Below are positions 3,514 to 57,424 of a stretch of DNA of 64,000 bases, piece by piece. Numbering within the stretch: position 1 is the stretch's first letter; each line of letters opens with the position of its first letter. Source of the DNA: Verrucomicrobiia bacterium (lineage in GTDB: Bacteria > Verrucomicrobiota > Verrucomicrobiia > Palsa-1439). Below the pieces are notes generated by a model. That model ran no database searches. It saw only the letters and a program-made list of their open reading frames with translations, and had not been told where the DNA came from. The stretch spans positions 1 to 64,000 of the forward strand of contig JAJVHY010000010.1 of the NCBI GenBank assembly GCA_022072455.1. The letters are read 5' to 3'. A program made the position numbers and the translations under genes.

Positions 3514-3612
3514 GTTGGAGAGTCGAGGCTGAACTGCAACTGCGTTACATCCTGCAACTTCAACTCGCCCTCGACTCTCCGATGTAAGGTAGGACTGCTT
3601 AGGGAAATTGCA
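3514..3612. repeat. hairpin repeat element (REP/MITE-like), copy 1
   Basis: Inverted arms GGAGAGTCGAGG (3517-3528) and CCTCGACTCTCC (3569-3580) are exact complements, flanked inside by TGCAACT blocks that extend the pairing. A second copy is at 57303-57424 and the left arm recurs at 6633-6668. The size, inverted arms and intergenic location fit a REP/MITE-like element. No transposase or target duplication was identified. Confidence 0.75.
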
Positions 3613-6160: not shown

Positions 6161-6652
6161 ATGCTCCAACCCCATCTCATCGGCGTCATCTCCGACACCC
6201 ATGGCTTGCTGCGCCCCGAGGCCATCAAAGCCCTACATGGCACCGAACTAATCATCCATGCCGGTGACTTCGATAAGCCTGAAATCCTCAGCGAGCTGAA
6301 AAACATCGCTCCCACGCTCGCGGTACGGGGCAACGTCGACCATGGCATCTGGGCTCAGAGTCTCCCACGAACGCGGTCGGTCGAAGTTGGCGGGATTCGG
6401 ATCTACGTCATCCATAATCTCGCCGACCTCAGCATCGATCTGGCGGCTGCAGGATTCACTGCCGTGATCAGCGGACATTCGCACAAGCCCTCGATCACCC
6501 GGAAAGATGGTGTGCTGTACCTGAACCCCGGCAGCGCTGGACCGAAGCGGTTCAAATTACTGCCGAGTGTGTCGCTGCTGCGAGTGACCGGTAATCAGGT
6601 GGAGGTTGAGCTGGTCGAGCTGGATGCGTACAAGTTGGAGAATCGAGGCTAA
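6161..6652 (+). CDS. YfcE-like metallophosphoesterase
   Basis: The 163-residue product is a compact calcineurin-like phosphodiesterase of the MJ0936/YfcE type. The metal-binding motifs are all present: SDTHG (11-15), GDFD (35-38), GNVD (57-60) and GHSH, then LNPGSAGPKR, a signature of this subfamily. Known members hydrolyse small phosphodiesters in the cytoplasm; the natural substrate is usually unknown. Its last codons (KLENRG then TAA) lie inside a copy of the dispersed hairpin repeat at 6633-6668, so the C-terminus is repeat-derived. It overlaps the beta-helix gene by 29 bases and is probably co-transcribed with it. It is divergent from the Fic gene. Confidence 0.9.
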   Translation: MLQPHLIGVISDTHGLLRPEAIKALHGTELIIHAGDFDKPEILSELKNIAPTLAVRGNVDHGIWAQSLPRTRSVEVGGIRIYVIHNLADLSIDLAAAGFTAVISGHSHKPSITRKDGVLYLNPGSAGPKRFKLLPSVSLLRVTGNQVEVELVELDAYKLENRG

Positions 6653-11505: not shown

Positions 11506-12375
11506 TTACTCGGTGTTCAGGCAAACCAATCCCACCATCTCGTCCAGGCTCACCCGCTTCTTGCCACCGAACACGGCTAGCAGAGCAGCATCGGCATTGA
11601 TTCGGGTCTTCACTTTCTTGTCCTGCAACCCATTCCGCTGGATGTAATCCCAGAGCTTCTTGGTGAGCTCGGTGCGAGGTAGCGGTTTCGAGCCCACCAC
11701 CAATGCCAGCTTCTCATTGGGTTGGACGGGCTTCGTGGATGCGTCATCGGGTTTCCACTGGGCGCACGTCTTGGCACTATAACTCGGCAACAGTTTTCTC
11801 ATCGTCTGGCGTATGTCAGCGACACTTTTGGCATTGCGTAGCCCGAGCATAAGTTTCTTATCTTTGGAGGGCTTGATTGGTGCCAAGCCACGCACCTCCA
11901 ATGTCGGCACGTTTCCCAGCGAAACAGCCCGCTGCCACTTCTTCATGGCCTTCAGCGCCGCCGCCGCATAATGCCGATCATCTCTCGTACGGACGCCAAC
12001 GCCGTTAAAGAGGTAGTGGACGCCCAGCAACAACCGAAAGAGCGACCGATTGAAGTACCAGTCAGACTCGTGCAGTTTGTTGAATCGAGCCAGTCGGCGG
12101 GGAAGTCGGTCTCCCTCGTCGAATAGGAACGCAGGGGCTTTCGATCTATCGCTTTTCGCATGGTTGCACTCATAGCAAGAGCACACACCGTTCTTGAGCG
12201 TGGATAAACCTCCTTTGGCGACCGGCACGAGATGATCAGCCCAGTCGATTGCAAAGTACGGATTTGCCCCACCGTCGAGAATCCACAACTTTGCGCCGCA
12301 GTACACACATGTCGCCCGATGCTTGACAAATAGTTTGGCTTTTTGTGCCTCAGTGAAATTACTGGCTCGTGGCAT
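11506..12375 (-). CDS. HNH endonuclease family protein
   Basis: The 289-residue product has a zinc-stabilised HNH module at its N-terminus: CVYC (about 23-26), then DWADHLVPVAKGG with the DH catalytic pair, the conserved Asn of LKNGVCSCYECN, and the second CxxC. This is the McrA/HNH_5 layout, a metal-dependent DNA nickase or nuclease. The C-terminal 200 residues carry a basic, lysine-rich region and no other known domain. Possible roles are restriction or mobile-element homing. It is followed downstream by the Kelch gene in convergent orientation. Confidence 0.85.
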   Translation of the reverse strand: MPRASNFTEAQKAKLFVKHRATCVYCGAKLWILDGGANPYFAIDWADHLVPVAKGGLSTLKNGVCSCYECNHAKSDRSKAPAFLFDEGDRLPRRLARFNKLHESDWYFNRSLFRLLLGVHYLFNGVGVRTRDDRHYAAAALKAMKKWQRAVSLGNVPTLEVRGLAPIKPSKDKKLMLGLRNAKSVADIRQTMRKLLPSYSAKTCAQWKPDDASTKPVQPNEKLALVVGSKPLPRTELTKKLWDYIQRNGLQDKKVKTRINADAALLAVFGGKKRVSLDEMVGLVCLNTE

Positions 12376-14375: not shown

Positions 14376-15869
14376 TCACACAATCCGCCGCAGCGCATCC
14401 ACGATCCTAATCATCCCCTCGCTGTCTCGGGCGCAGTAATCCTCGAGCTGCTGGCGAACCCGCCGCCGCTCCTCCGCCGTCACCTCTCCAATCGTGACTC
14501 GCAGAAATTCATTTGAAGCCGTGTTACCTTCCTGAATTTCCAAGCCTTCGTAACCCTTGCCAGTCAACGCCGGTAAGGCGGCTTTCATCGAACCACTGCC
14601 GTGCTGCTCCGGGTGGTAATAGTCGAACGACCGGAACGGATCCAGCAAATCGACAACTCGAGTATCGACGTCCTTCACCCACGGCGAGAATTTGGGCATC
14701 ACGGCACAGCACTCTTTGAGACGGCTCAACTCGAAAGAAGCGTTGAACGCCACGACGGAGCCGTTGGGCGGCAGGGCGCCCCGGAGGGTGTTCATGAACT
14801 CCGGTCGGGGATCGTCACGGCCCTCGGCGAGAAACATGACGTGCTCCGGCTTAGCGCCAGCCGCACGCACAACGTGCAGGCTGAATTGAAACGGCACCTG
14901 CTGGTACGGGTGCAGCCCATCGAACAACGGAATGGCGGTGCCAAACGTCTCGAAATCCAAGTAGCTGACCGGGTACTCGAGCCGGGCCAGGAATTTGGCA
15001 ATCGCCTTTGAGTCGACGTGCGGCTTGCCGGAGATCGCAACCTGCCGTTGAATCGACTGATTGTTCGTGAGCTTGAAGCTGTCGGGAATGTCCTCGATCG
15101 CAGTGACGTCCCGACCGAGCAGATCGAAGCCCTTCTTACCGCCCCGGTACAAATCGAAAACGTTGTGATCCGGTAGAAACTTCCAGCAGTGATCGTGCAG
15201 CGGACAGGTGTATGGATCATCGCAGTGGGAGCCGATCTCGACTTCGGGATGTTTCCGCTGCTGGATCACCCTGAGCATGTCTTCGAGTTTGTCCGGCACC
15301 TGCTGCGCCAGTTCCGACACCTGGTCGCTCACGTCCACCAGTGTGAAAAACTTGTTCGGGTCGATGTCACCACGCCGAACGAAGTCGGAGTTGATGTGGC
15401 AGAGGTAGATTTTCCGTAGCAGCAGTCCGGCACTGCACAGCACCCAGGTCTGTAAAGCCAGGTCATCCAGGTGGACGTCTTTCAGGCTGGTTGTTGATTT
15501 GACTTCGATCAAATCCCAGGCGTCTTTCAGCGACGGACGCAGGATGTCGGTTCGGCAGTAGCCGCCGTCGGCAGTGAATGCCGCCTCGAACAGCGGCTTG
15601 CGAAGTTTGAGCGCTGCTTCGGTCAGCCGGATGACTTTTGCCGGGTCAATAATGCCAGCGCCGACCTCGACGCCATCAGGGAACATTTGCTTGGCGATGG
15701 CGCCGACGTCGTGGCCCTGCTCGAAGATCGCCTGGGTGGAGGCGTCCGGTGCCGGGATCAACTCTTTGGCGTTGTAAGCGTGCCACAAAAGTTTGTGACA
15801 CTGCAGGCCCCAGAGGAATTTGGACTTGGAAATGAATGGCGCTGGCTTCACTCGCCGGAATTGTAGCAC
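14376..15869 (-). CDS. DUF2779 family nuclease-like protein
   Basis: The 497-residue product starts near the family signature ISKSKFLWGLQCHKLLW. Residues 110-150 carry a PD-(D/E)xK-like core ending LIEVKS, as in RecB/Cas4-type nucleases, with a cysteine cluster at about 220-232 (CDDPYTCPLHDHCW) that could hold an iron-sulfur or zinc site. The C-terminal half looks like a DEDD-type exonuclease fold: SYLDFETFG, AFNASFE and YCARDSEGM. Such proteins occur singly or near defence and mobile genes; substrate unknown. The start is GTG at 15869 or a second GTG at 15851. It borders the element-like region that follows. Confidence 0.8.
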   Translation of the reverse strand: MLQFRRVKPAPFISKSKFLWGLQCHKLLWHAYNAKELIPAPDASTQAIFEQGHDVGAIAKQMFPDGVEVGAGIIDPAKVIRLTEAALKLRKPLFEAAFTADGGYCRTDILRPSLKDAWDLIEVKSTTSLKDVHLDDLALQTWVLCSAGLLLRKIYLCHINSDFVRRGDIDPNKFFTLVDVSDQVSELAQQVPDKLEDMLRVIQQRKHPEVEIGSHCDDPYTCPLHDHCWKFLPDHNVFDLYRGGKKGFDLLGRDVTAIEDIPDSFKLTNNQSIQRQVAISGKPHVDSKAIAKFLARLEYPVSYLDFETFGTAIPLFDGLHPYQQVPFQFSLHVVRAAGAKPEHVMFLAEGRDDPRPEFMNTLRGALPPNGSVVAFNASFELSRLKECCAVMPKFSPWVKDVDTRVVDLLDPFRSFDYYHPEQHGSGSMKAALPALTGKGYEGLEIQEGNTASNEFLRVTIGEVTAEERRRVRQQLEDYCARDSEGMIRIVDALRRIV

Positions 15870-15982: not shown

Positions 15983-15997
15983 CCGGCACTCCTGACG
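15983..15997 (+). promoter_or_regulatory. shared element motif CCGGCACTCCTGACG, upstream of the ClpX-like gene
   Basis: The motif lies 59 bases before the ATG of the ClpX-like gene. Matching motifs are at 20620-20634, 24385-24399 and 54342-54356, each in the intergenic space before another gene of the putative element system. It may be a promoter or operator. Confidence 0.5.
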
Positions 15998-16055
15998 TGG
16001 GAATTTTCTGCACTTCGGCCTTGGCCGCTGTCGTGCGGTTCAGCATGCTTGCCCC

Positions 16056-17579
16056 ATGCCATCCGCCGCCGCCACTGCGATTTTGGAGTTTGGAAAATTG
16101 ATCCACACCGAGGCTTCACGGCCCGTCGCCGAGCACGACCCGAAACGCATCTTGACCGCCGAGCGGCGGCTGATTGAGCAACTGAGTGTTGATGACAACC
16201 CGCTCTTGAAACCGGCCTTGTTGTTCCACGTCAGCCGCCCCATCGAGCCGCTCGTGGTGCGCGTACTCGCACTCGTGGCCTACCTGCAATTATGCACCAA
16301 CTTCCGGGTCGCGATCACTGACGTTGCCATCGCCGCGACCGAAGATGACACGGCGCGGATCATCACGGCGCGGCAGGTCATCACTTCACTGTTGTATACG
16401 AAGCGCCTCCAGTTGGCGGTAAATACGGATGACCAATTGGAGTTGGGTCAGGCCATGTCATCGCTGCTGGCCGGGGGCTCCACCAAGTTACCAGTCATCG
16501 TCAACGCCTGTGAATTGCACCGCCAGTGGCGCCGCAACGAGGCCGAGGCCGCCAAACGCAAACTCCAGGAGTCGAAACCAGAACTGCCGACAGCCCGGGC
16601 GATCTACGAATCGCTTAGTCGCTTCGTCATCGGCCAACACGACTTGAAGATGGCACTGGCTGTCGCTGGCCGACAGACGTTGTTGCGGCGCGCGGTCCGA
16701 CAGCGGAAACAGCCCCAAGTCCTCCCGCCGAAGCCGAACGTCTGCGTCATTGGGGCCAGTGGCTCCGGCAAAAGCCTGGCCTGTCAGGCATTGAGCCAAA
16801 TCCTGCACCTGCCCCATGCCTCGGTCGATTGCAGTCAGGTCACCGCGTCGGGTTACGTCGGCGATGACCTATCCGGGTGTCTGTCGCTTCTCGCCCAATC
16901 CGCCGAGGCGATGCGCGTCAACCCCGAGGAGGGCGGGCTTGTCCATCTGGACGAGATCGACAAGGTTTCTTCGGCGGCGTACTCATCGCCGACAACGATC
17001 GGCGTGCAGTTCGAAGCCCTGCGGTTGCTCGATGGGGCACAGGTCTCTCACCCGGTCGGCAACATGACCAAGTGGGGTGGGTTCGGCGCCACCATGGACA
17101 CCTCAAACCTATTGGTCGTTTGTAGCGGAGCTTTCTCGTGGCTGGCTGACGATCTCAATGGAAGGAAGCGCGAACTGGGCTTCGCCCACAGCGTCAATGA
17201 TAACGCTACCCACGGCGGCAACTTACGCGAGTTGCTCTCGACTCGCGGTGGTCTCATCCCAGAGGTGGTCAACCGGTTCTCGGCCATCGTCCGAATGGAG
17301 CCGCTCACGCCGGAGGACATCGCGGCGATTCTTATGTCGGACCGCGGAGCACTCGGTGAATATCGCGCCCTGCTGCAAGCCGAAGGGCGGACTATTGCCG
17401 TGGAGCCAGAGGCCGCCTTGCTGGTCGGTCAGTGGTCCATTGCCACTGGCCAGATGGGGCGGGGCCCAAAGGCGGCGTTGGAGTTGTCGTTGCGCGAAGC
17501 CCTGTTCGAAGGGCAACCGAAGGACATCGTGGTTACGATCGACCTCGTTAGGCAGAAGCTCGGCGCCGTGGGTGATTGA
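16056..17579 (+). CDS. ClpX-like AAA+ ATPase
   Basis: The 507-residue product contains a ClpX-type AAA+ module in its second half: IYESLSRFVIGQHDLK (183-198), Walker A GASGSGKS (233-240), pore-loop GYVGDD (266-271, like the GYVGED loop of ClpX), Walker B GLVHLDEIDK (294-303) and the ENVNRF-like sensor region PEVVNRFSAIVRMEPL. The N-terminal 180 residues are not the ClpX zinc finger and are not recognised; they probably select a different client. There is no obvious ClpP-binding IGF loop. It probably unfolds or remodels a protein of the mobile element, such as a replication or transposition complex. It is the first gene of the plus-strand element region. Confidence 0.8.
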   Translation: MPSAAATAILEFGKLIHTEASRPVAEHDPKRILTAERRLIEQLSVDDNPLLKPALLFHVSRPIEPLVVRVLALVAYLQLCTNFRVAITDVAIAATEDDTARIITARQVITSLLYTKRLQLAVNTDDQLELGQAMSSLLAGGSTKLPVIVNACELHRQWRRNEAEAAKRKLQESKPELPTARAIYESLSRFVIGQHDLKMALAVAGRQTLLRRAVRQRKQPQVLPPKPNVCVIGASGSGKSLACQALSQILHLPHASVDCSQVTASGYVGDDLSGCLSLLAQSAEAMRVNPEEGGLVHLDEIDKVSSAAYSSPTTIGVQFEALRLLDGAQVSHPVGNMTKWGGFGATMDTSNLLVVCSGAFSWLADDLNGRKRELGFAHSVNDNATHGGNLRELLSTRGGLIPEVVNRFSAIVRMEPLTPEDIAAILMSDRGALGEYRALLQAEGRTIAVEPEAALLVGQWSIATGQMGRGPKAALELSLREALFEGQPKDIVVTIDLVRQKLGAVGD

Positions 17580-20619: not shown

Positions 20620-20642
20620 CCGGCACTCGTGACGTGCGTGTA
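20620..20642 (+). promoter_or_regulatory. shared element motif in the divergent intergenic region
   Basis: CCGGCACTCGTGACG (20620-20634) overlaps TGACGTGCGTGTA (20630-20642). The first part recurs before the ClpX-like and both methylase genes; the second is repeated exactly at 24118-24130. It lies between the polymerase-like gene (minus) and the small-gene operon (plus), so it could control either. Confidence 0.5.
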
Positions 20643-20723: not shown

Positions 20724-20921
20724 ATGGACACCATCGAAATCAAATACTCCAGCCCGTCCCTCGGCGGCGGTTATGTAACCGAAACCATCCAGTGCCAGGG
20801 CACACAGCAAGCGTTTAACTTGATTCGCAGCCGCGTACCCGACGCAGTCTTCAACGGCATTGTCATCCACCCGTCGCCGCAACCGACCACGCCACCAACC
20901 GATCCGCACCGGCGATGGTAG
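20724..20921 (+). CDS. small hypothetical protein, first gene of the RuvB-like operon
   Basis: The 65-residue product, MDTIEIKYSSPSLGGGYVTE followed by a short helix and a proline-rich tail, has no recognised family. AAGGAG at 20711-20716 gives a well-placed ribosome binding site and fixes the start. Its stop overlaps the ATG of the next small gene. Confidence 0.55.
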   Translation: MDTIEIKYSSPSLGGGYVTETIQCQGTQQAFNLIRSRVPDAVFNGIVIHPSPQPTTPPTDPHRRW

Positions 20922-21127: not shown

Positions 21128-21501
21128 TCGAATTCAAAGAAGGCAGCTATTTCATCGGGTTTTGGTTCGTGGGCGGCGCGGACACCGACTGGTTCGCCGG
21201 GGCCTGGCGCGAACAAAGTAGCTCCACCTGGATCTTCCGCGCCCGGTTCCGGTATCACAGCCCGACGAGCCGGACGGCGTTTGACAACGAGGACCGCAAG
21301 AGTCCGATGGAGTTCGAGGTGGACGGAACGAAGAAGACCGAGGACGACATCATCCGCGACGTGGCGTTGATCGCCGGGCTGATTGGCCAACGGTTCGGCG
21401 TCGAGCCGGAGTTCGTCGAAGTCCGTGGGGATCGCGACAAGGCGTTGTTTTGTCTCGCGATGAAACCGTGGGCTCACATCGAACGGCAAGCGATCAAATG
21501 A
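21124..21501 (+). CDS. hypothetical protein of the RuvB-like operon
   Basis: The 125-residue product begins MIEFKEGSYFIGFWFVGGADT and has an alternating beta pattern with aromatic residues (STWIFRARFRYH), then a C-terminal helix and strand (DDIIRDVALIAGLIGQRFG). It looks like a compact alpha/beta domain; no family was recognised. It is coupled on both sides by ATGA overlaps, to the 70-residue gene and to the RuvB-like gene. Confidence 0.6.
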   Translation: MIEFKEGSYFIGFWFVGGADTDWFAGAWREQSSSTWIFRARFRYHSPTSRTAFDNEDRKSPMEFEVDGTKKTEDDIIRDVALIAGLIGQRFGVEPEFVEVRGDRDKALFCLAMKPWAHIERQAIK

Positions 21502-22466
21502 ACGCGCTTCGCCCAGCAACCTTGGATCAGTTCGTTGGCCAGGAGTCGGTGCGGCGTATCTTGTCCGTACTGATTGCTGCGGCACGCAAACGCAACGAGC
21601 CAGTGCCGCACCTGCTGATGTCAGGCCCGCCAGGCTTGGGGAAAACCAGCCTCGCCCGCATCGTGGCGCACGAGATGAAGGGACGCTTGACCGAGATGGT
21701 TGGCTCGACCGTCAAGCAGGTCAGCGACATGAGCCATCACCTACTCCAATTGCGGCCGAATGACGTGCTCTTCATCGACGAGATTCACGCGCTGCCGCGC
21801 AAAGTTGAGGAAGTGCTGTACGGAGCCATGGAGGACAACGCCATCACAGTCGAGCAGCGTGGCTTCAACGATCTGATGCGCCAGATTGGCGTCGCGCATG
21901 GCGACAAGTCAGTCACGACGCATCGGCTGCCGCCATTTTCACTGCTTGGAGCCACGACCAAACTCGGATCGGTCACTGCTCCGCTCCGCGCACGATTTCG
22001 TCAGGTGATCGAGTTGCGTCCGTATGCCGTCAGTGAATTGCAGCGCATCGTCACCGTCACGGCAGAGAAGCTGCAGTTTGCATTGCCCGAGGAGATCGCC
22101 ATGCAGATTGCTCAACGGAGCCGCGGCACCGCACGCGTGGCCGTCAGTCACTTGATGTGGCTTCGTGACGTCGTCATGGGCGACGGCGGGGTGGCGACGA
22201 TGGAGCTCTTACGCCAAGCGTTCGAGTTGAAAGGCATTGACGAGAACGGGCTCGGCCAATCGGATCGCGAGTATCTGCACCAGTTGATTAAGACCGACGA
22301 AGCACTTGGTGCCGACACGCTCGCCACTGCACTCGGCGAAAGCGTCGAGACCGTTACCGACAGTATCGAGCCGTACCTGATGCAGAGTGGGTTCGTGCAG
22401 CGCACGTCACGGGGCCGGATGGCGACCGACAAGGCTCGCGAACTGTTAAAGGAGGCAACCGCATGA
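21498..22466 (+). CDS. RuvB-like Holliday junction AAA+ ATPase
   Basis: The 322-residue product follows RuvB along its length: LRPATLDQFVGQESVRRIL at the start, Walker A GPPGLGKT (43-50), VLFIDEIHALPR with the Walker B DEIH (94-97), the QRG loop, LLGATTKLGSVTAPLRARF with the arginine finger, and the C-terminal winged helix (YLMQSGFVQRTSRGRMAT). Unlike housekeeping RuvB it has an insertion after the QRG region (DLMRQIGVAHGDKS) and no ruvA or ruvC next to it. RuvB drives branch migration at four-way junctions. As part of a small-gene and recombinase operon it probably serves replication or integration of the element. ATGA overlaps link both neighbours. Confidence 0.9.
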   Translation: MNALRPATLDQFVGQESVRRILSVLIAAARKRNEPVPHLLMSGPPGLGKTSLARIVAHEMKGRLTEMVGSTVKQVSDMSHHLLQLRPNDVLFIDEIHALPRKVEEVLYGAMEDNAITVEQRGFNDLMRQIGVAHGDKSVTTHRLPPFSLLGATTKLGSVTAPLRARFRQVIELRPYAVSELQRIVTVTAEKLQFALPEEIAMQIAQRSRGTARVAVSHLMWLRDVVMGDGGVATMELLRQAFELKGIDENGLGQSDREYLHQLIKTDEALGADTLATALGESVETVTDSIEPYLMQSGFVQRTSRGRMATDKARELLKEATA

Positions 22467-23149
22467 ACGAATGGACGCTGACCCCCGACCGTTACCTCGC
22501 CAAGGAGGAAGTGGGCTAACTTCTTCGTCGCGCCGAGGAACTGCGTGCTGTCGGTGTCGCGAAGAATCGCCGCCAGGCCGTGCGCGACTGGTTGATCATC
22601 CGCCTAGCGTTGTTCTCCGGCCTCCGGGCCTCGGAGATCTGCGCCCTGCAAATCACAGATTGCCACATCGGCTATGCTCACAGCGATCTGTTGGTGCGCC
22701 GGGGTAAAGGCAACAAAATGCGGGTCGTGAAGATCGGCCCCGATTTGAAGAAAGACATCCGCTGGTATTTGCGCTGGAAGGCACAGGTCGGCGAGTTGCA
22801 CCCAGACGCCTACTTGCTCCGGACGAAGCGCGCGGAGCGTTTGAACCGCAGTGCGCTGTGGCGGCGATGGAATCGTTATTGTCCCTCCCACCGACTGCAC
22901 GATGCCCGGCACACGGCCGCGACTCTGTTGTATGAAGCGAGCCAGGACTTGCGGTTGGTTCAGAAGCAACTCGGTCACAGCCGCCCCTCGATCACGGCGG
23001 TCTACGCTGATGTCTGCGATGTGAAAGCCCGCGAAGGAGTGGCGGCCATGGAGCAACTCGCTAAGCGCACGATGCGGGTGGGCGGCTCCACGCCGGCCAC
23101 CGAACCGATGTTGTCCTCTGCTCCGGCTGAAGTCGCCGCTGGCATCTGA
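22463..23149 (+). pseudogene. minimal tyrosine recombinase with an in-frame stop
   Basis: From the ATG that overlaps the RuvB-like stop, the frame reads MNEWTLTPDRYLAKEEVG, then TAA at 22517-22519, then LLRRAEELRAVG and onward without a break to 23149. The catalytic residues of a tyrosine recombinase are all there: Arg in SGLRASEI, Lys in RGKGNK, the HDARH box, His in LGHSRPSIT and the Tyr of VYADV. There is no full N-terminal core-binding domain, as in small catalytic-domain-only integrases. The stop removes only the first 18 codons, but no good restart site is visible (first candidate GTG at 22580). It may be inactive, suppressed, or a sequencing error. Confidence 0.8.
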
Positions 23150-23633
23150 CCGTTTTTCACCGTTTAGTTCCAACAGCTCACCGGTTCGCATCCGTACTGC
23201 CGATCTGATGCGAACCTTGCCGAATCGGATGCGAAACAGGGGGCGAAATGACACGATGTGATGCGAAAAACCGCCCTATTTTGATTTGGTCGGATGGCTT
23301 TTTCGCAACCGATCCTGCCGGACTTCGCATCAATCGCGTGTCGGACGCAAACCTCTCCGTATGCGTTCGACCAAATGGTGCGGCGGGTAGTGGTAAGAAT
23401 TTACCACCATGTGGTTGACCCACCCGTTCCTCACCGGCCCGAAAACTCTGGCCAGAACCATCGAACTGTTCAAAGCCCCTTGCCTACGGTTCAAAGTCGG
23501 GTGGGTGGGCGACCAGAAGGGTTCAAAGTTTCAGGGCATTTTTGATTTGCGGAGGCGGTTTTTCGTTCAGAGTCTATGTACGTTCAGTCCAGAGTTCTTG
23601 AATGCCGCGGGTGATGTCGTCGTGCGCCGACAT
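23150..23633. other. non-coding stretch with iteron-like repeats
   Basis: No gene is supported here. The first 180 bases hold the GATGCGAA/TTCGCATC repeats listed separately. The rest has no feature I can identify. Confidence 0.6.
23185..23331. repeat. iteron-like cluster of GATGCGAA / TTCGCATC
   Basis: Five exact copies of an 8-mer occur in 147 bases: TTCGCATC at 23185-23192 and 23324-23331, GATGCGAA at 23207-23214, 23228-23235 and 23260-23267. The outer copies are inverted relative to the inner three. Such clusters are typical of replication-initiator or recombinase binding sites. Confidence 0.7.
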
Positions 23634-24319: not shown

Positions 24320-24455
24320 ACTTCCCGGCGCCGGGAAGTCCCGCCTCCTTGGGCACCGCCACCGCCCGCACTTCGCTGGTCACGCCGGCACTCCTGACCT
24401 GACACGAGGGCCGGGGTGGTTCGGATCCCAGGCGCCTGGCGGCCATTGGCCCCGA
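24320..24455 (+). promoter_or_regulatory. conserved palindromic block upstream of methylase 1 (copy A)
   Basis: Three parts are present. A perfect 20-bp palindrome, ACTTCCCGGCGCCGGGAAGT, is at 24320-24339 and is repeated exactly at 51036-51055. CCGGCACTCCTGACC is at 24385-24399. A 33-bp block at 24423-24455 contains CCAGGCGCCTGG and CGGCCATTGGCCCCGA and recurs at 51127-51159 and 54378-54410. It lies about 100 bases before the GTG of the methylase. The palindromes suggest protein binding or RNA structure. Confidence 0.75.
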
Positions 24456-24557
24456 TGTGCGCCGGCACCCCGGCAAGTGACGAGTGCCGGTTGTTGCTCG
24501 GAGCAGAAAATCGCAGACTCCAGAAGGCCTTCGCCTGCCGATCTTGAATAACGATGA

Positions 24558-25394
24558 GTGCATACAATCATCACTCACGGTCAGCGCCGGTCGGCCGCTG
24601 ACCTCGTACCATACACTCGTAGTGTCTTGCGAATGCCGGGCGGCAAGACGCGCGGCCTCAATCAACTGCTTCGCTACTTCCCGGCCGAGCCGAGCATGCT
24701 GGTGTCGCCATTTTTAGGCGGCGGGAGTCTCGAGCTTGCCCTAGCCGCACGGGGCTGGCACATCCACGGCTACGATGCGTTCGAGCCACTGGTCGACTTT
24801 TGGCAAGAGGCGTTAGAAGACCCCGTCGTATTGGCGGAGGCGGTCGAGCGCTATTTACCCTTGGATCGCGACACCTTCCGACGTCTTCAGCGCACACGCC
24901 TTGAATCACGGTGCGCACGAGCGGCCGCGTACTTCGTGATTAACCGCAGTAGTTTTAGCGGCAGCACCATGTCCGGCGGAATGTCGCCGTCTCATCCCCG
25001 CTTCGATTCCAACGCCATTGATCGGCTGCGGCGATTTCGCGCCCCGAATTTGACGGTCGAGTTGGCGGACTTCCGCGAGTCGATTGCGGCGCATCCAAAG
25101 ACGTTGTTGTATTGCGATCCACCTTACCCGGATGCTCGATCACTCTATGGTGTGAACGGCGACAAACACGATGGCTTCGACCATCAGGCACTCTGCGACA
25201 TTCTGCGATCCCGGGACAAATGGCTCTTGTCCTATAGTGACTGTCCACTGGTGCGTTGGTGGTACAACGACTTCACGATCATTCCGCTTAGTTGGTCATA
25301 CGGAATGTCGATCAAGCGCGGGCGTGAGCTGCTGATTCTGAGCGACGATGTAGCGGAGGACTTTCGCGGCCGGCGCGGGAAGGAGTTACCGTGA
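24558..25394 (+). CDS. D12-class DNA adenine methylase 1 (Dam-like)
   Basis: The 278-residue product is a Dam/D12-class N6-adenine methyltransferase: LRMPGGKTRGLNQLLRYF at the start, SAM-binding motif SPFLGGGSLELALA (about 50-63) and catalytic motif CDPPY (about 192-196). It is closely similar to the product of 54519-55361 along its full length, including the region before PGGKTR, which supports the GTG start at 24558 in both. No cognate restriction enzyme is nearby, so it is probably an orphan methylase of the element, involved in replication control or protection. It is followed by the remnant of a zinc-ribbon gene at 25391-25414, intact in the other copy. Confidence 0.9.
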   Translation: MHTIITHGQRRSAADLVPYTRSVLRMPGGKTRGLNQLLRYFPAEPSMLVSPFLGGGSLELALAARGWHIHGYDAFEPLVDFWQEALEDPVVLAEAVERYLPLDRDTFRRLQRTRLESRCARAAAYFVINRSSFSGSTMSGGMSPSHPRFDSNAIDRLRRFRAPNLTVELADFRESIAAHPKTLLYCDPPYPDARSLYGVNGDKHDGFDHQALCDILRSRDKWLLSYSDCPLVRWWYNDFTIIPLSWSYGMSIKRGRELLILSDDVAEDFRGRRGKELP

Positions 25395-25502
25395 AAATCT
25401 GCGACATCGCTTGACTCGTGCGTTGTATTGCTCGACGAACCGGTCGATGGCTTCGGTGACGGTTAGGCCGTGTAAATCGAGTTGGTCATCGGAAGATGGC
25501 AT
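25386..25502 (-). pseudogene. truncated Smr-domain protein, N-terminal fragment
   Basis: The 38-codon frame starts MPSSDDQLDLHGLTVTEAID and continues RFVEQYNARVKR, the first strand and helix of an Smr domain (LDLHGLT ... EA). The domain needs about 80 residues; here it runs into the end of the methylase gene and stops. The break point is near 25405-25412, where it meets the broken zinc-ribbon gene coming from the other side. Confidence 0.7.
25391..25414 (+). pseudogene. remnant of the methylase-linked zinc-ribbon gene
   Basis: GTG AAA ATC TGC GAC then ATC GCT TGA encodes MKICDIA. In the second methylase locus the gene in the same place (55358-55579) begins MKICDVCQ and is intact. Only five codons survive here, so the element-like block ends at this point. 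Confidence 0.75.
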
Positions 25503-50753: not shown

Positions 50754-50765
50754 GTCTACGTAGAC
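50754..50765. promoter_or_regulatory. putative LacI operator 1 (GTCTACGTAGAC)
   Basis: A perfect 12-bp palindrome with central TACGTA lies 60 bases upstream of the PEP-CTERM gene. It is just downstream of a possible minus-strand promoter (TTGACT at 50807-50812, TAGAGA at 50785-50790, spacing 16). Binding there would block initiation. Confidence 0.6.
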
Positions 50766-50850
50766 TCTAATCTTCACCGCTGTGTCTCTACCAAAAATTA
50801 CGACAAAGTCAACATTTTAGAGCATGTCATGCGTGACGTTAGCACGAACT

Positions 50851-50866
50851 GAGATTACGTAATCTC
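50851..50866. promoter_or_regulatory. putative LacI operator 2 (GAGATTACGTAATCTC)
   Basis: A perfect 16-bp palindrome with the same central TACGTA lies 97 bases from operator 1, centre to centre about 99. Paired sites with a symmetric CG centre are typical for LacI-family repressors. Both lie before the operon that encodes the LacI protein. Confidence 0.6.
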
Positions 50867-51035
50867 ACTCACTAGACTCCGGTTTGAGTCCCGGCATCGT
50901 GAGTTTGGGGCGTTTCCTGTTCAGGATCGCCCACAACCGAGTAGGAAATAGCGCTACGGCAAATCGAGGGGTTTAGCCGCGTAGGTGCCGTAGGCCCGGA
51001 AGGGATATATGCCAAGACATCAGTCGCCGATCGAA
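50867..51035. other. intergenic remainder, nothing recognised
   Basis: No gene, hairpin or repeat was identified in this stretch between the operators and copy B of the palindromic block. Confidence 0.4.
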
Positions 51036-51159
51036 ACTTCCCGGCGCCGGGAAGTCCCGCCCCTTGGTCACTGCCACCGCCTGGTCACAAGGTGATGCCA
51101 TGGGAGCGACCGCTATGCTTGGCACCGGATCCAGGCGCCTGGCGGCCATTGGCCCCGAC
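51036..51159 (+). promoter_or_regulatory. conserved palindromic block (copy B) downstream of topo VI
   Basis: The perfect palindrome ACTTCCCGGCGCCGGGAAGT is at 51036-51055 and the block with CCAGGCGCCTGG and CGGCCATTGGCCCCGA at 51127-51159. The same two sequences in the same order and orientation occur at 24320-24455. Here no methylase follows; the next gene is the convergent end of topo VI A. With copy C at 54378 it brackets the topo VI genes. Confidence 0.7.
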
Positions 51160-51238
51160 ATGCGCCGACGCTTCTGGTGTAGATGTTGGTGAGCCGTGGG
51201 CGTTGGACGGACCTGGTAATGGCGGCAGGCAATGACCT

Positions 51239-51257
51239 TCCGGCAATTTGCCGGAAC
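51239..51257. terminator. possible terminator hairpin after topo VI A
   Basis: TTCCGGCAATTTGCCGGAA is a near-perfect inverted repeat about 60 bases after the topo VI A stop. There is no strong T-run, so terminator function is uncertain. Confidence 0.35.
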
Positions 51258-51315: not shown

Positions 51316-52473
51316 TCAAGGAAGGAAGCGGGACTTCTTCAGCTTGTCGGGCAGATAGGTGTCGAGGACGAAGTTCAGGCCGTGCTTGGCGAAGGCTTGT
51401 TGCTCGACGCGGACTCCGAGCTTGATCATCTGGTTCAACGCATCCTGCCATTCCTTGTGATGCTTGATGAACGGATCGTTCTTGAGGGCGTCGTTCGCGC
51501 GTTTGATGTCGGCTTCCTCGAGTGGATGGGTGGCGTCTTCGAGTTGGTAGTCGTGGATGTCTTGCGGGGTGACGCCGAGGTAGTGCGCTTGCGGCACGCA
51601 GAAGAAACGGTTGATGTGAGCGGCTTGGCCGGAGCCGACCTTGAGGGTGCGATAGATGTTGCAATAGCCGTACGGGTCGCCGTCGGTGAAGGCCAGCACC
51701 GGTAAATGCTGATCGTCGGCGAGCCGGCGAATGAAGCGCCGGCAGGCCCGGGTGGGCACGCCGCTCATCGAGATGAGTACGCACTTGGCCCGCTCGTAAT
51801 ACCGATGATGCACCAGGCGCTGGAACAGCGAAGCGGTCTCGATGGCGAGGATGAACTTGGCCTTGCCGGCCTCGAATCGCAGGTGCTCGACGCGCGACGG
51901 GATGCTCCAGGCGCCGCTGCCGAGTTTCGTGCAGTCGATCCGAATGGGTTTGCCGGTGGCGGGGTCTTGGTCGATCACCACGAGCGGGCCGGTGACGTCG
52001 CCGCCGCGTTCCTCGGGGATGTAGCCGAGCTGTTCGCGGTTGATGGCGAGCATGGCCTCGATGTCGTCAAGGAGGGTGTCGCTTTCCGGTTGTTCATCGA
52101 ACCGGCATTCACCCCAGCTCTTGCTGTTGTAATAGACCTCGCGTTTGCCGGCAATGTCGTCCTTGTCCAACAGGTCGTTCTTGGTCGTGGCCAGCAGGCG
52201 CATCGACTGGGCGAAGGTCTTGACGGTGTTGTAGGACAGGGTGCGGGTCGCGGTGCGACCGAGGATCTCGAAGTGCCCGCGCTTCACGTCATACTTCACG
52301 TTCTGCAGCGAGCGGATCGGGAACTCCATCGACGGCTTGCGCTGTTTCTTGATGATGTCGGCGTGGATTTCCTGCGCCACCGCGACGATCTTTTGGGCGG
52401 CGGCTTTCTTGGACACGACGGTCGGCGCCGCGGCGGTGGGCTTGGTCTTCGTTTTTGTTTTCGTCTTGGGCAT
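51316..52473 (-). CDS. top6A: DNA topoisomerase VI subunit A (Spo11-like)
   Basis: The 385-residue product is a full topo VI A subunit. It has a basic N-terminus (PKTKTKTKTK), the catalytic tyrosine in REVYYNSKSWG (Tyr114 or Tyr115), and a Toprim domain with Glu211 in FILAIETASLF and the acidic pair in AFTDGDPYGYCNIYRTLKVG (Asp264, Asp266). Together with subunit B it makes ATP-dependent double-strand breaks with strand passage to relax and decatenate DNA. AGGAG lies before the ATG at 52473. It is 17 bases downstream of top6B, so the two form an operon. Topo VI is general in archaea and rare in bacteria. Confidence 0.9.
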   Translation of the reverse strand: MPKTKTKTKTKPTAAAPTVVSKKAAAQKIVAVAQEIHADIIKKQRKPSMEFPIRSLQNVKYDVKRGHFEILGRTATRTLSYNTVKTFAQSMRLLATTKNDLLDKDDIAGKREVYYNSKSWGECRFDEQPESDTLLDDIEAMLAINREQLGYIPEERGGDVTGPLVVIDQDPATGKPIRIDCTKLGSGAWSIPSRVEHLRFEAGKAKFILAIETASLFQRLVHHRYYERAKCVLISMSGVPTRACRRFIRRLADDQHLPVLAFTDGDPYGYCNIYRTLKVGSGQAAHINRFFCVPQAHYLGVTPQDIHDYQLEDATHPLEEADIKRANDALKNDPFIKHHKEWQDALNQMIKLGVRVEQQAFAKHGLNFVLDTYLPDKLKKSRFLP

Positions 52474-52490
52474 GGCGGCTCCTTTTTCGG

Positions 52491-54242
52491 TCAGACATCC
52501 AGATGGGTTTTTTCCAGCATCTTCTTCAGGTTGCCGACGACCTTGTGCTCTTCCTTGTCGGTCAAGCCGAGGATGTTCTTCAAGCCAAGGGCGAGATGCG
52601 GGATGTAGAGTTCCATGTAGTTGCGTTTGCGGGCGGCTTCGAGTTCGCGATGGCGTTTGTGCAGGAACACCGCCAGCCGCCGGCCGCACTCCTGGAGGCC
52701 GAGGGTCAGCTCGTCGATGATCTCGGCGTAGCTGGCGATGGCGTCTTTGCTTTCACTCGTGAACGGCACCCAGACGCTCGCGAGGTGCACCAGCACCACC
52801 ACCGGGCCGATAGGCAGCGCGTCCTTGGGCTGGCTCAAACCGTAGGATTTCCAATTCACTCCGATCACCCCCCGCGTCATGGCACAGGCACCGGCTTGGT
52901 AAAGCAACGGCACCCGGTTGGCGAACCGTAAGACGCGAACGGGCTCCTCGATACCGACGCCCTCGTTCTCCTGGGGCCGCGCAAAGGCGAGGCCGATCTC
53001 GATCTGGAACGGGTTGCCGCGATACACCGCTGGATCCCGCGTCACCGCGGTGAAGAAGTCGGCGGCGATTTCCTTCTGCAGGCCGGCGAGAATCTGCGCT
53101 TCGCCGATGGGCGACAGGCAGTCGGTCGGTGGCCGCATCAGCTTGGTGTCCTGGATCGCCTTGTACAACGCCTCGCTCTCGTGGTGGGCGATGCGCGTCG
53201 GGTTGGTTTTCGGGTCGATGCCGGCGCGGGTGCAGACGTCCAAGGCCGTCTGGGCGCTGACGCGCGAGAAGTCGTTGGACAGGGCGGAACGTACCGTGCG
53301 GCTTTCGGTGTCCTTGAGCATCTGCATCAGCAGGCCGAGCTCGACGCCGTGCGGATGCGGCAGGATCTCGTCGGGGATCTTTGGCATCACCTTCACAGCA
53401 CGGTGGTAGGTGATGGCGGTGATCCCGGGCTTGGCGGCCAGGGCGACCGGTTGCGATGGCGCCGGTTTCTTGGCTGGCTGGGACTTTGTGGCCGGTTCCG
53501 GTTTGGCATCGGCCGGTTCGGTCTTCGTTTGCAGGGCGAGCCGGTAGTGCAGCGTCAGGTGCGGGTTGACGATGGCGCACTGCTTCACGAACTCGTCCAC
53601 CGATTGTTTGCCACGCTGGTAGGCGGCCTCCATCTCGATCGAGACGGAGGTGCCGTGCTTCGACACCACCGGCGGGCCATCGGGTTCGCCGGCGGCATCG
53701 ACGGCCTGAAACGTCGGATGCCAGTCCTGTTCGGTGTCGCGGAGGATGGCCGGCTTGTTCTGCTTGGTGTCGATCTGCACTGCCAGGGAGTGGGCTTTCT
53801 TGGCGTTCTTGATCCGCGAGAGGATGCGCGTGGCGGCGCCCGTGGTGAGCTGGCCGTACATGCCGGCGGCACTGATGCCGATTCCCTGCTGGCCGCGCGA
53901 CATCCGGAGCCGGTGGAATTTTGAGCCGTACAGCAGCTTGGCGAAAATCTTCGGGATCTGGTTCTTGACGATGCCGGGGCCGTTGTCGGTGACGGTGACC
54001 CGGAAGCGGTTGTCGGCGATCTGTTCGAGCTCGACCGCGACCTCCGGCAGCACGCCGGCTTCCTCGCAGGCGTCCAAGGAGTTGTCCACCGCCTCTTTGA
54101 CCGCCGTCAGCAACGCCCGGCGGGGACTGTCGAAGCCCAGCAGGTGCCGGTTCTTGAGGAAGAATTCCGACACGGCGATGTCGCGTTGCTTGGTCGCCAT
54201 GCTTTCGGCGGTTGCTGGTCCGCTGCCTGTTCGTTTTGCCAT
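52491..54242 (-). CDS. top6B: DNA topoisomerase VI subunit B (GHKL ATPase)
   Basis: The 583-residue product has the GHKL ATPase motifs of topo VI B: the N box KEAVDNSLDA (49-58), DNGPGI (86-91) and the lid SRGQQGIGIS (115-124). A transducer domain and the conserved QPKDALPIGP-like SQPKDALPIGPVVVLVHLASVWVPF follow. A Lys/Pro/Ala-rich insertion near residues 250-285 is probably a linker. It drives the ATP-dependent gate for subunit A. The frame is open for 99 codons upstream, but that part is the conserved non-coding block also found away from topo VI, so the ATG at 54242 is chosen. It is divergent from methylase 2. Confidence 0.9.
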   Translation of the reverse strand: MAKRTGSGPATAESMATKQRDIAVSEFFLKNRHLLGFDSPRRALLTAVKEAVDNSLDACEEAGVLPEVAVELEQIADNRFRVTVTDNGPGIVKNQIPKIFAKLLYGSKFHRLRMSRGQQGIGISAAGMYGQLTTGAATRILSRIKNAKKAHSLAVQIDTKQNKPAILRDTEQDWHPTFQAVDAAGEPDGPPVVSKHGTSVSIEMEAAYQRGKQSVDEFVKQCAIVNPHLTLHYRLALQTKTEPADAKPEPATKSQPAKKPAPSQPVALAAKPGITAITYHRAVKVMPKIPDEILPHPHGVELGLLMQMLKDTESRTVRSALSNDFSRVSAQTALDVCTRAGIDPKTNPTRIAHHESEALYKAIQDTKLMRPPTDCLSPIGEAQILAGLQKEIAADFFTAVTRDPAVYRGNPFQIEIGLAFARPQENEGVGIEEPVRVLRFANRVPLLYQAGACAMTRGVIGVNWKSYGLSQPKDALPIGPVVVLVHLASVWVPFTSESKDAIASYAEIIDELTLGLQECGRRLAVFLHKRHRELEAARKRNYMELYIPHLALGLKNILGLTDKEEHKVVGNLKKMLEKTHLDV

Positions 54243-54341: not shown

Positions 54342-54410
54342 CCGGCACTCCTGACCCGCCACGAGTGCCGGCCGCATGGATCCAGGCGCCTGGCGGCCAT
54401 TGGCCCCGAC
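54342..54410 (+). promoter_or_regulatory. conserved block (copy C) between top6B and methylase 2
   Basis: CCGGCACTCCTGACC is at 54342-54356 and the 33-bp block with CCAGGCGCCTGG and CGGCCATTGGCCCCGA at 54378-54410. It lies in the 276-base divergent space, so it may control top6B and the methylase together. The 20-bp palindrome of copies A and B is missing here. The flanks towards the methylase also resemble those of copy A. Confidence 0.7.
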
Positions 54411-54518
54411 ACGCGCCGGCACTCCCGGCGTGTGGTTGCTCGGAGACCCCATAGGCCTCCAAGCAGAATTCGCTAACTCGATAAAGGCCTTTGCGCTACC
54501 GCTCGCGAATGACGATGG

Positions 54519-55361
54519 GTGCATACACTCATCACCCAAAGACGGCGGCGCGGGTCGTGCGCCGACCAGTCACCGTATACCGGCAGCCCCCTACGTTTCC
54601 CGGGCGGTAAGACTCGGGCTGTGGCGCAAATCTTGGCGTACTTTCCAACCGCACCCGGAACCGTGGTCTCGCCGTTCATCGGTGGCGGCAGCGTGGAGTT
54701 GGCACTGGCCGCGCAAGGGTGGCAGGTTCACGCCTATGACTATTTCGCGCCACTCGTGGATTTTTGGCAGGTGGCGCTCACTGACGCACCGTCGCTGGCT
54801 GATGTGGTGATGAAATATCTGCCATTGCAGAAGCAGACGTTTCAAATGCTGCAGAACATCCGGTTCACGACGAAACTGGAGCGGGCGGCGGCGTTCTTCG
54901 TCTTGAACCGGGCGAGCTTCAGCGGTTCGACGATGAGTGGGGGAATGTCGCCCGGCCACCCACGGTTCACGGCATCAGCGATCCAGCGATTGCGGGCTTT
55001 CAAAACCGGCGACCTATGGGTTGAGCGAGCGGACTTTCGTAGGTCGATCCAAGATCATCCCAACAGCCTACTGTTCTTAGATCCGCCATATGTCACCGCC
55101 AAAAATTTATACGGCCGCCGTCGTAACCTTCACAACAGCTTCGATCATGCTGCCTTGTCTGATCTCATCCGTCACCGTAACCGCTGGATCCTGTGTTACG
55201 ACGACTGCGAACAGGTGCGTCAGTGGTACGACGGCTACACGACGGTGCCGCTTCGCTGGTCCTACGGCATGAGCGCCGACAAGCGTGGCCGTGAGTTGCT
55301 GATTTTGAGCCACGATGTGGCGGAGGAATGGCGCGCTCGGGGCGGGAATGAAACGTCATGA
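54519..55361 (+). CDS. D12-class DNA adenine methylase 2 (Dam-like)
   Basis: The 280-residue product is a close paralogue of the methylase at 24558. Shared parts include MHTLIT, LRFPGGKTR, the SAM motif SPFIGGGSVELALA, NRASFSGSTMSGGMSPGHPRF and the RGRELLILSHDVAEEW end; the catalytic motif is LDPPY. Both use GTG starts inside matching upstream sequence (GTGCATACA). It is divergent from top6B and coupled by ATGA to the small zinc-ribbon gene. Adenine methylation might mark the element or control topo VI and replication; the target sequence is unknown. Confidence 0.9.
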   Translation: MHTLITQRRRRGSCADQSPYTGSPLRFPGGKTRAVAQILAYFPTAPGTVVSPFIGGGSVELALAAQGWQVHAYDYFAPLVDFWQVALTDAPSLADVVMKYLPLQKQTFQMLQNIRFTTKLERAAAFFVLNRASFSGSTMSGGMSPGHPRFTASAIQRLRAFKTGDLWVERADFRRSIQDHPNSLLFLDPPYVTAKNLYGRRRNLHNSFDHAALSDLIRHRNRWILCYDDCEQVRQWYDGYTTVPLRWSYGMSADKRGRELLILSHDVAEEWRARGGNETS

Positions 55362-55579
55362 AAATCTGCGACGTCTGCCAGAAAGTTGTCGACCGGCTCC
55401 AGGGCGGCCCCGCAGAAATGTCGCAAAGCGAAATCTGCGGCGAATGCGCTGCTGACATCTTGCGCCGCTTCGCGCTCGTGGAACAGCGGCTGGCTGAATC
55501 AAAAAGACAGTGGCGCAATGATGTGATCACGGAATGGCGGCGGGAACGAAGGCCGGGCAACGGTACCGCCACGAGCTGA
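55358..55579 (+). CDS. small zinc-ribbon protein linked to methylase 2
   Basis: The 73-residue product has CDVC at residues 4-7 and CGEC at 27-30, a four-cysteine zinc ribbon, followed by a charged helix (LVEQRLAESKRQWRNDVITE). Its ATG overlaps the methylase stop in an ATGA. A remnant of the same gene, only MKICD, survives after methylase 1 at 25391-25414, so the pair is an inherited unit. It may be a partner or regulator of the methylase. Confidence 0.7.
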   Translation: MKICDVCQKVVDRLQGGPAEMSQSEICGECAADILRRFALVEQRLAESKRQWRNDVITEWRRERRPGNGTATS

Positions 55580-57302: not shown

Positions 57303-57424
57303 GGTGGAGAGTCGAGGCTGATCTGCAACTGCACTTAACTGCCATACGTCTCTGCACTCAACTGCAACTTCAACTCGTCCTCGACTCTCCACCGCAACGT
57401 AAGCCTGTTTGGTGGATTAGCAAG
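57303..57424. repeat. hairpin repeat element (REP/MITE-like), copy 2
   Basis: Arms GGAGAGTCGAGG (57306-57317) and CCTCGACTCTCC (57379-57390) match those of 3514-3612, and the right part CTGCAACTTCAACTCG is nearly identical. The loop is 11 bases longer. The spread over 54 kb shows a genome-wide family. Confidence 0.75.

Follow-up and report, generated by a model that had tools for sequence, protein, structure and literature searches.

The closest described counterparts of the DNA discussed here are the RptR and restriction-modification controller promoter/operator regions of restriction-modification and defence islands, in which palindromic sites likewise lie upstream of a modification gene and are repeated within one promoter region. 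For RptR, the 6-bp site TAGCTA is carried by three 9-bp direct repeats that precede the gene of the regulator itself (PMC12255303). The modification genes considered below belong to the D12 N6-adenine methylases (PF02086), a family found as orphans or in type II systems. Both methylases of the window (the whole stretch analysed, i.e. bases 1-64000 of contig C22, itself 98.6 kb long and ~2% of a 4.8-Mb assembly of 36 contigs) match this family (80.7 and 80.4 bits, curated cut-off 22), and so does a truncated third copy. Behind most of their closest homologues (Lentisphaeria, Thaumarchaeota, Bacteroidota and Chloroflexi) lies an RE_HaeIII-like nuclease; the window copies have either a small CxxC ORF there or nothing. 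Homologues were encountered at eleven loci in other species; the gene next to the Lentisphaeria homologue is RE_HaeIII, and most of the others carry a similar ORF directly behind, as judged by its opening residues. No endonuclease was recognised beside the window methylases by Pfam or PADLOC, so that these are best called orphan here rather than assigned to a type II system, and a methylase search of viral contigs returned no relative. D12 adenine methylases adjoining RE_HaeIII-like nucleases are seen at L069:6781-8585 and L072-L081. HaeIII cuts GGCC, and such pairs probably have another target because this site contains no adenine. In a Lentisphaeria genome, this methylase family is represented by a C-terminal and an N-terminal fragment that lie apart (L070 and L071, G056 contig 1 at ~198.8 and ~540.4 kb).

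In the window, three related intergenic blocks named A, B and C lie near these methylases and near a topoisomerase VI operon. Their features and neighbours are as follows.

24320..24339, no strand: palindrome 1, copy A, ACTTCCCGGCGCCGGGAAGT, exact, 20 bp
24385..24401, plus strand: motif CCGGCACTCSTGACSTG in block A, exact, with an inverted partner at 24474-24490 on the minus strand
24428..24455, plus strand: 28-bp core, copy A (CCAGGCGCCTGG palindrome plus CGGCCATTGGCCCCGA), exact
24503..24537, plus strand: leader box GCAGAAAATCGCA..AAGGCCTTCGC, ~30 bp before methylase 1
24558..25394, plus strand: D12 adenine methylase 1, 278 aa, no adjacent nuclease partner
25391..25414, plus strand: truncated start of a small downstream ORF (KICDIA*), where the A/B homology ends
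50754..51256, no strand: palindrome cluster around block C, at 50754, 50850, 51036, 51131 and 51238 (TTCCGGCAATTTGCCGGAA); 0/300 shuffles as rich
51036..51055, no strand: palindrome 1, copy C, ACTTCCCGGCGCCGGGAAGT, exact, 20 bp
51131..51158, plus strand: 28-bp core, copy C, 3' of topoisomerase VI subunit A, exact
51316..54242, minus strand: topoisomerase VI operon (subunits A and B), with block C on one side and block B on the other
54342..54358, plus strand: motif CCGGCACTCSTGACSTG in block B, 1 mismatch, with an overlapping inverted copy at 54355-54371 and a further copy at 54416-54432
54382..54409, plus strand: 28-bp core, copy B, between the divergent topoisomerase VI subunit B and methylase 2, exact
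54463..54497, plus strand: leader box GCAGAATTCGC..AAAGGCCTTTGC before methylase 2
54519..55361, plus strand: D12 adenine methylase 2, 280 aa, 60% identical to methylase 1
55358..55579, plus strand: small ORF with CxxC pairs after methylase 2, intact, no Pfam match

An earlier note had reported an exact 20-bp palindrome at 24320 and 51036 together with a nearly unchanged block at three sites, and both observations hold. Palindrome 1 is exact in its two copies, where chance yields a mean of 0.01 even with 3 mismatches allowed, and the 28-bp core CCAGGCGCCTGGCGGCCATTGGCCCCGA is identical at 24428, 51131 and 54382, against a chance mean of 0. Throughout the 4.8-Mb genome, palindrome 1 has two copies and the core three, all on contig C22. 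The core was found within 3 mismatches in none of ten genomes of the family, and exact scans gave 0 matches in 84,980 other species genomes and 0 in viral contigs, both collections possibly leaving out records very near the host. A literature search with the palindrome sequences returned unrelated papers only. Palindrome 1 does occur in two viral contigs, at intergenic positions of unrelated context, and these matches are probably due to chance or to a terminator; other weak matches of block A in relatives were taken as chance, and those read in G002, G004 and G005 appear to be coding.

The same note held the blocks to be more conserved than the coding sequence around them, which is confirmed by a comparison of copies A and B. 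Their methylase coding DNA is 60% identical (65, 74 and 39% at the three codon positions of methylases 1 and 2), and the fourfold-degenerate sites are only 34% identical, yet the core is conserved at 28 of its 28 positions, which indicates that the block is under constraint. An identical run of 28 bp has a probability of ~0.00025 if identity is taken as equal and independent at 60% per site. The core has no common reading frame, and the frames that cross it in A and C close soon after, as read from the sequence. The blocks thus form a real, constrained set whose conservation exceeds that of coding sequence.

The three copies differ in what they retain. Block A lies upstream of methylase 1 (start 24558), block B lacks palindrome 1, and block C, which has palindrome 1 and the core and has lost the CCGGCACTC motif, lies without a methylase, bounded by the 3' end of topoisomerase VI subunit A (51316) on one side and by the following minus-strand gene (50693) on the other. 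The similarity between A and C had been described as covering roughly 150 bases and ending at the methylase starts; the extent of ~150 bp is correct, but the similarity stops ~80 bp before methylase 1 and copy C adjoins no methylase. The similarity between A and B continues through the methylase gene and into the start of the small ORF, and the duplicated unit therefore comprises block, methylase and small ORF. A third methylase copy outside the window (contig 78424-78740) consists of the leader and the N-terminus only. At the same place, C22 78424-79403 (L067:18489-19403) holds a chimeric open ORF of 304 aa in which a methylase N-terminus (~86 aa) is fused in frame to unrelated sequence. GGATCC abuts every core (24424, 51127 and 54378), with a spacing that differs by one base in copy A; it includes GATC, the site of Dam-type D12 methylases.

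Sequence elements of blocks A and B recur in front of other mobile-element genes of the window.

15983..15999, plus strand: motif CCGGCACTCSTGACSTG between the divergent DUF2779 and AAA genes, exact
16056..17579, plus strand: AAA ATPase gene with the common upstream module
20620..20636, plus strand: motif CCGGCACTCSTGACSTG before ORF 20724 and the RuvB-like/integrase operon, exact
20724..20921, plus strand: small ORF opening the RuvB-like/integrase operon, with a homologue in G007, a genome of another genus of the family (partly read by eye)
21498..22466, plus strand: RuvB-like AAA gene
22463..23149, plus strand: tyrosine integrase pseudogene, interrupted by an in-frame TAA close to the start; 63-65% identity with the integrase of G007
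23185..23331, no strand: five copies of GATGCGAA in both orientations, iteron-like, immediately behind the integrase; elsewhere the window has only two more
23390..23407, no strand: palindrome GTGGTAAGAATTTACCAC, which recurs unchanged in the G007 array

The four matches to CCGGCACTCSTGACSTG with 0-1 mismatch in the 4.8-Mb genome are all intergenic and all on this contig. With up to 2 mismatches, 7 of the 13 genome matches fall on its 98.6 kb, where shuffled contigs give 0-1; since the motif was defined on this contig, the count within it is partly circular, and the contrast with the other 4.7 Mb is independent. A match on contig 28 was dropped as it lies inside a coding gene. The motif was not seen in the contig of the related G007 element. 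Leader boxes similar to those of the methylases occur at ~20652, ~16010 and contig position 78434, so that a GGCCTT box precedes the AAA gene, both methylases and the methylase fragment by ~30-34 bp and ORF 20724 by ~54 bp. The 28-bp core is absent before AAA 16056 and before the 20724 operon, and only the motif and the leader tie these genes to the blocks. A scan detected no sigma-70-type promoter at block A or block C, a result of little weight in such an organism, and no HTH gene was recognised beside the blocks, the small ORFs 20724 and 55358 matching no family. Further genes of the region include a DUF2779 protein at 14376-15869, divergent from the motif-bearing AAA gene and weakly matching Cas4 and a phage DNA polymerase family, and a protein combining HNH nuclease and SWIB domains at 11506-12375. 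PADLOC found no defence system in the sugar-hydrolase cluster between the blocks.

We consider that the blocks probably are promoter/operator modules serving genes of a single decayed and rearranged integrative element on this contig, and we assign this reading a probability of about 0.58. The duplication, the confinement to one contig, the constraint above that of coding sequence and the presence of the motif at other genes of the element are observed. A cassette made of block, D12 methylase and small ORF was duplicated long ago; copy A has retained the block and the methylase, copy B the core, the methylase and the small ORF, and copy C the block alone. The invariant palindromes and CCGGCACTCSTGACSTG are probable sites for a putative dimeric regulator encoded by the element, through which the methylases, the AAA gene and the RuvB-like/integrase operon would be controlled jointly. 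Protein binding at these sites, the identity of the protein and the direction of control are predictions of this reading. The common regulator proposed in the earlier note is plausible and has indirect support: the blocks are confined to the contig and the motif of blocks A and B precedes other mobile-element genes, but no regulator gene was identified.

The inclusion of topoisomerase VI in one undescribed system with the methylases, also proposed at the outset, is not supported. Both subunits carry the Pfam domains of bacterial topoisomerase VI. Of 388 genomes sampled from the phylum, 52 encode subunit A; among the ten other genomes of the family it occurs in G001, whose proteins are 96-97% (subunit A) and 90% (subunit B) identical to those of the window and whose operon is surrounded by sugar-metabolism genes. 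DNA similarity to the topoisomerase VI loci of G001 and of more distant relatives ends at the two gene ends, and no block was found when the blocks were blasted against the relatives' loci; the operon therefore adjoins blocks only in this genome, and in other genomes topoisomerase VI has no link to blocks or methylases. Since the operon occurs elsewhere without blocks, homology stops at the ORF ends and close methylase homologues mostly adjoin a HaeIII-type nuclease gene, there is no support for topoisomerase VI as part of the system; it would be a bystander or, at most, secondarily influenced.

The observations in G007 bear on a different role for the palindromes. The nearest relative of the window element lies on G007 contig 137 and shares with it the order small ORF, RuvB-like gene, integrase and palindromes; it has an intact integrase and a primase gene, whereas the window element has a broken integrase and methylases. 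Directly after the intact integrase, five different near-perfect palindromes of 16-20 bp follow one another within ~190 bp (L156, G007:C137 6134-6583), an array matched in richness by 0 of 300 shuffles. It includes ACTTCCCGTCGCCGGGAAGT, GGTGGTAAGAATTTACCACC and TTCCGGTAAATTGCCGGAA, all of which are matched or nearly matched in the window: one is palindrome 1 with one change, GTGGTAAGAATTTACCAC is identical and one resembles the palindrome at 51238. The window palindromes are diverse, 12-20 bp long and near an integrase, and no integron-type cassette array was seen. The intergenic DNA before methylase 1 is palindrome-rich (0/300 shuffles as rich), that before methylase 2 less so (32/300). In viral contigs, the integrase search found no relative and the RuvB-like search only a partial match of 44%. 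Imperfect inverted repeats (GGTGGAGAGTCGAGGCTG... / ...CCTCGACTCTCCACC) are present at 57303-57393 and 3516-3580, with a related half at 6630, and an intact tyrosine integrase lies near a tRNA-Lys gene, as in a tRNA-integrated island, at C22 81697-83197 (L068:1698-3197).

A replication/recombination site was among the options raised by the earlier note. In view of these arrays, the palindromes could serve the RuvB-like/integrase family in recombination or replication, as accessory integrase sites, att-like cores or an origin, and exchange between blocks could have relocated the pieces with the methylase and topoisomerase VI. The G007 palindromes and the five GATGCGAA repeats behind the window integrase agree with this view, as do the direct core copies flanking the topoisomerase VI operon and the truncated and chimeric forms of the methylase. 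We nevertheless hold it to be unlikely, given that the core is absent from G007 and the other family genomes within 3 mismatches, that the window integrase is a pseudogene and that no duplicated tRNA-Lys end was found as an att mark at contig 83 kb. Moreover, B and C are unlike the attL and attR of a simple site-specific insertion because A-like sequence persists to either side of the core in copy B. A broader proposal, in which an undescribed family of RuvB-like and integrase elements in this Verrucomicrobiota family would use its palindrome arrays (~16-20 bp) as recombination/replication sites and its palindrome blocks to let cargo (the D12 methylase, perhaps topoisomerase VI) be inserted or reshuffled, appears more doubtful still.

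The blocks might also be passive remains of segmental duplication, without function and kept alike by gene conversion. The copies are indeed fragments of one duplicated cassette, their ends are ragged, and no gene follows block C. However, conversion tracts would be longer and would take the flanks along, whereas the 28 identical bases are set amid immediate neighbours that have diverged strongly between copies, which disfavours recent gene conversion. Synonymous sites are, moreover, near saturation, and the common motif is also found upstream of unrelated genes, so that passive survival seems quite unlikely.

A structured RNA or cis-acting RNA leader encoded by the blocks is very improbable. 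Folding is better than in shuffles for block C (z -2.33) and block B (z -3.06) but not for block A (z -0.67), and the large hairpin of B (CCGGCACTC/GAGTGCCGG) is mismatched in A and absent in C. There was no Rfam match in the window, and only 1 of 22 predicted pairs is compensatory, with an unfavourable covariation term, although three sequences make this a weak test. The suggestion of the earlier note that the blocks act as RNA is thus not supported: it is the sequence rather than the pairing that is kept between copies. Dispersed genomic repeats (REP, BIME, MITE or similar), which short, GC-rich and intergenic palindromes could suggest, have a negligible likelihood, since a genome-wide check for scatter at unrelated loci found none, only three core and two palindrome-1 copies existing in 4.8 Mb, all on one contig, and the 84,980 other species genomes and the viral contigs having no exact core match.

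If the blocks are promoter/operator modules, a small regulon of a decayed integrative element would be readable from sequence alone, and non-coding control DNA would be seen to outlast the genes that it served. The palindrome array, which recurs in the sister genus, could serve to delimit a family of elements together with its recombination/replication sites. A false lead is also removed, as the methylases and topoisomerase VI need not form one system.

Compared with the sites of RptR, the window sites measure 12-20 bp, are of several kinds and are distributed over several promoters, and no regulator gene was found with them. Operator/promoter modules are familiar in kind; the palindrome array shared with G007 is the observation that stands apart from them.
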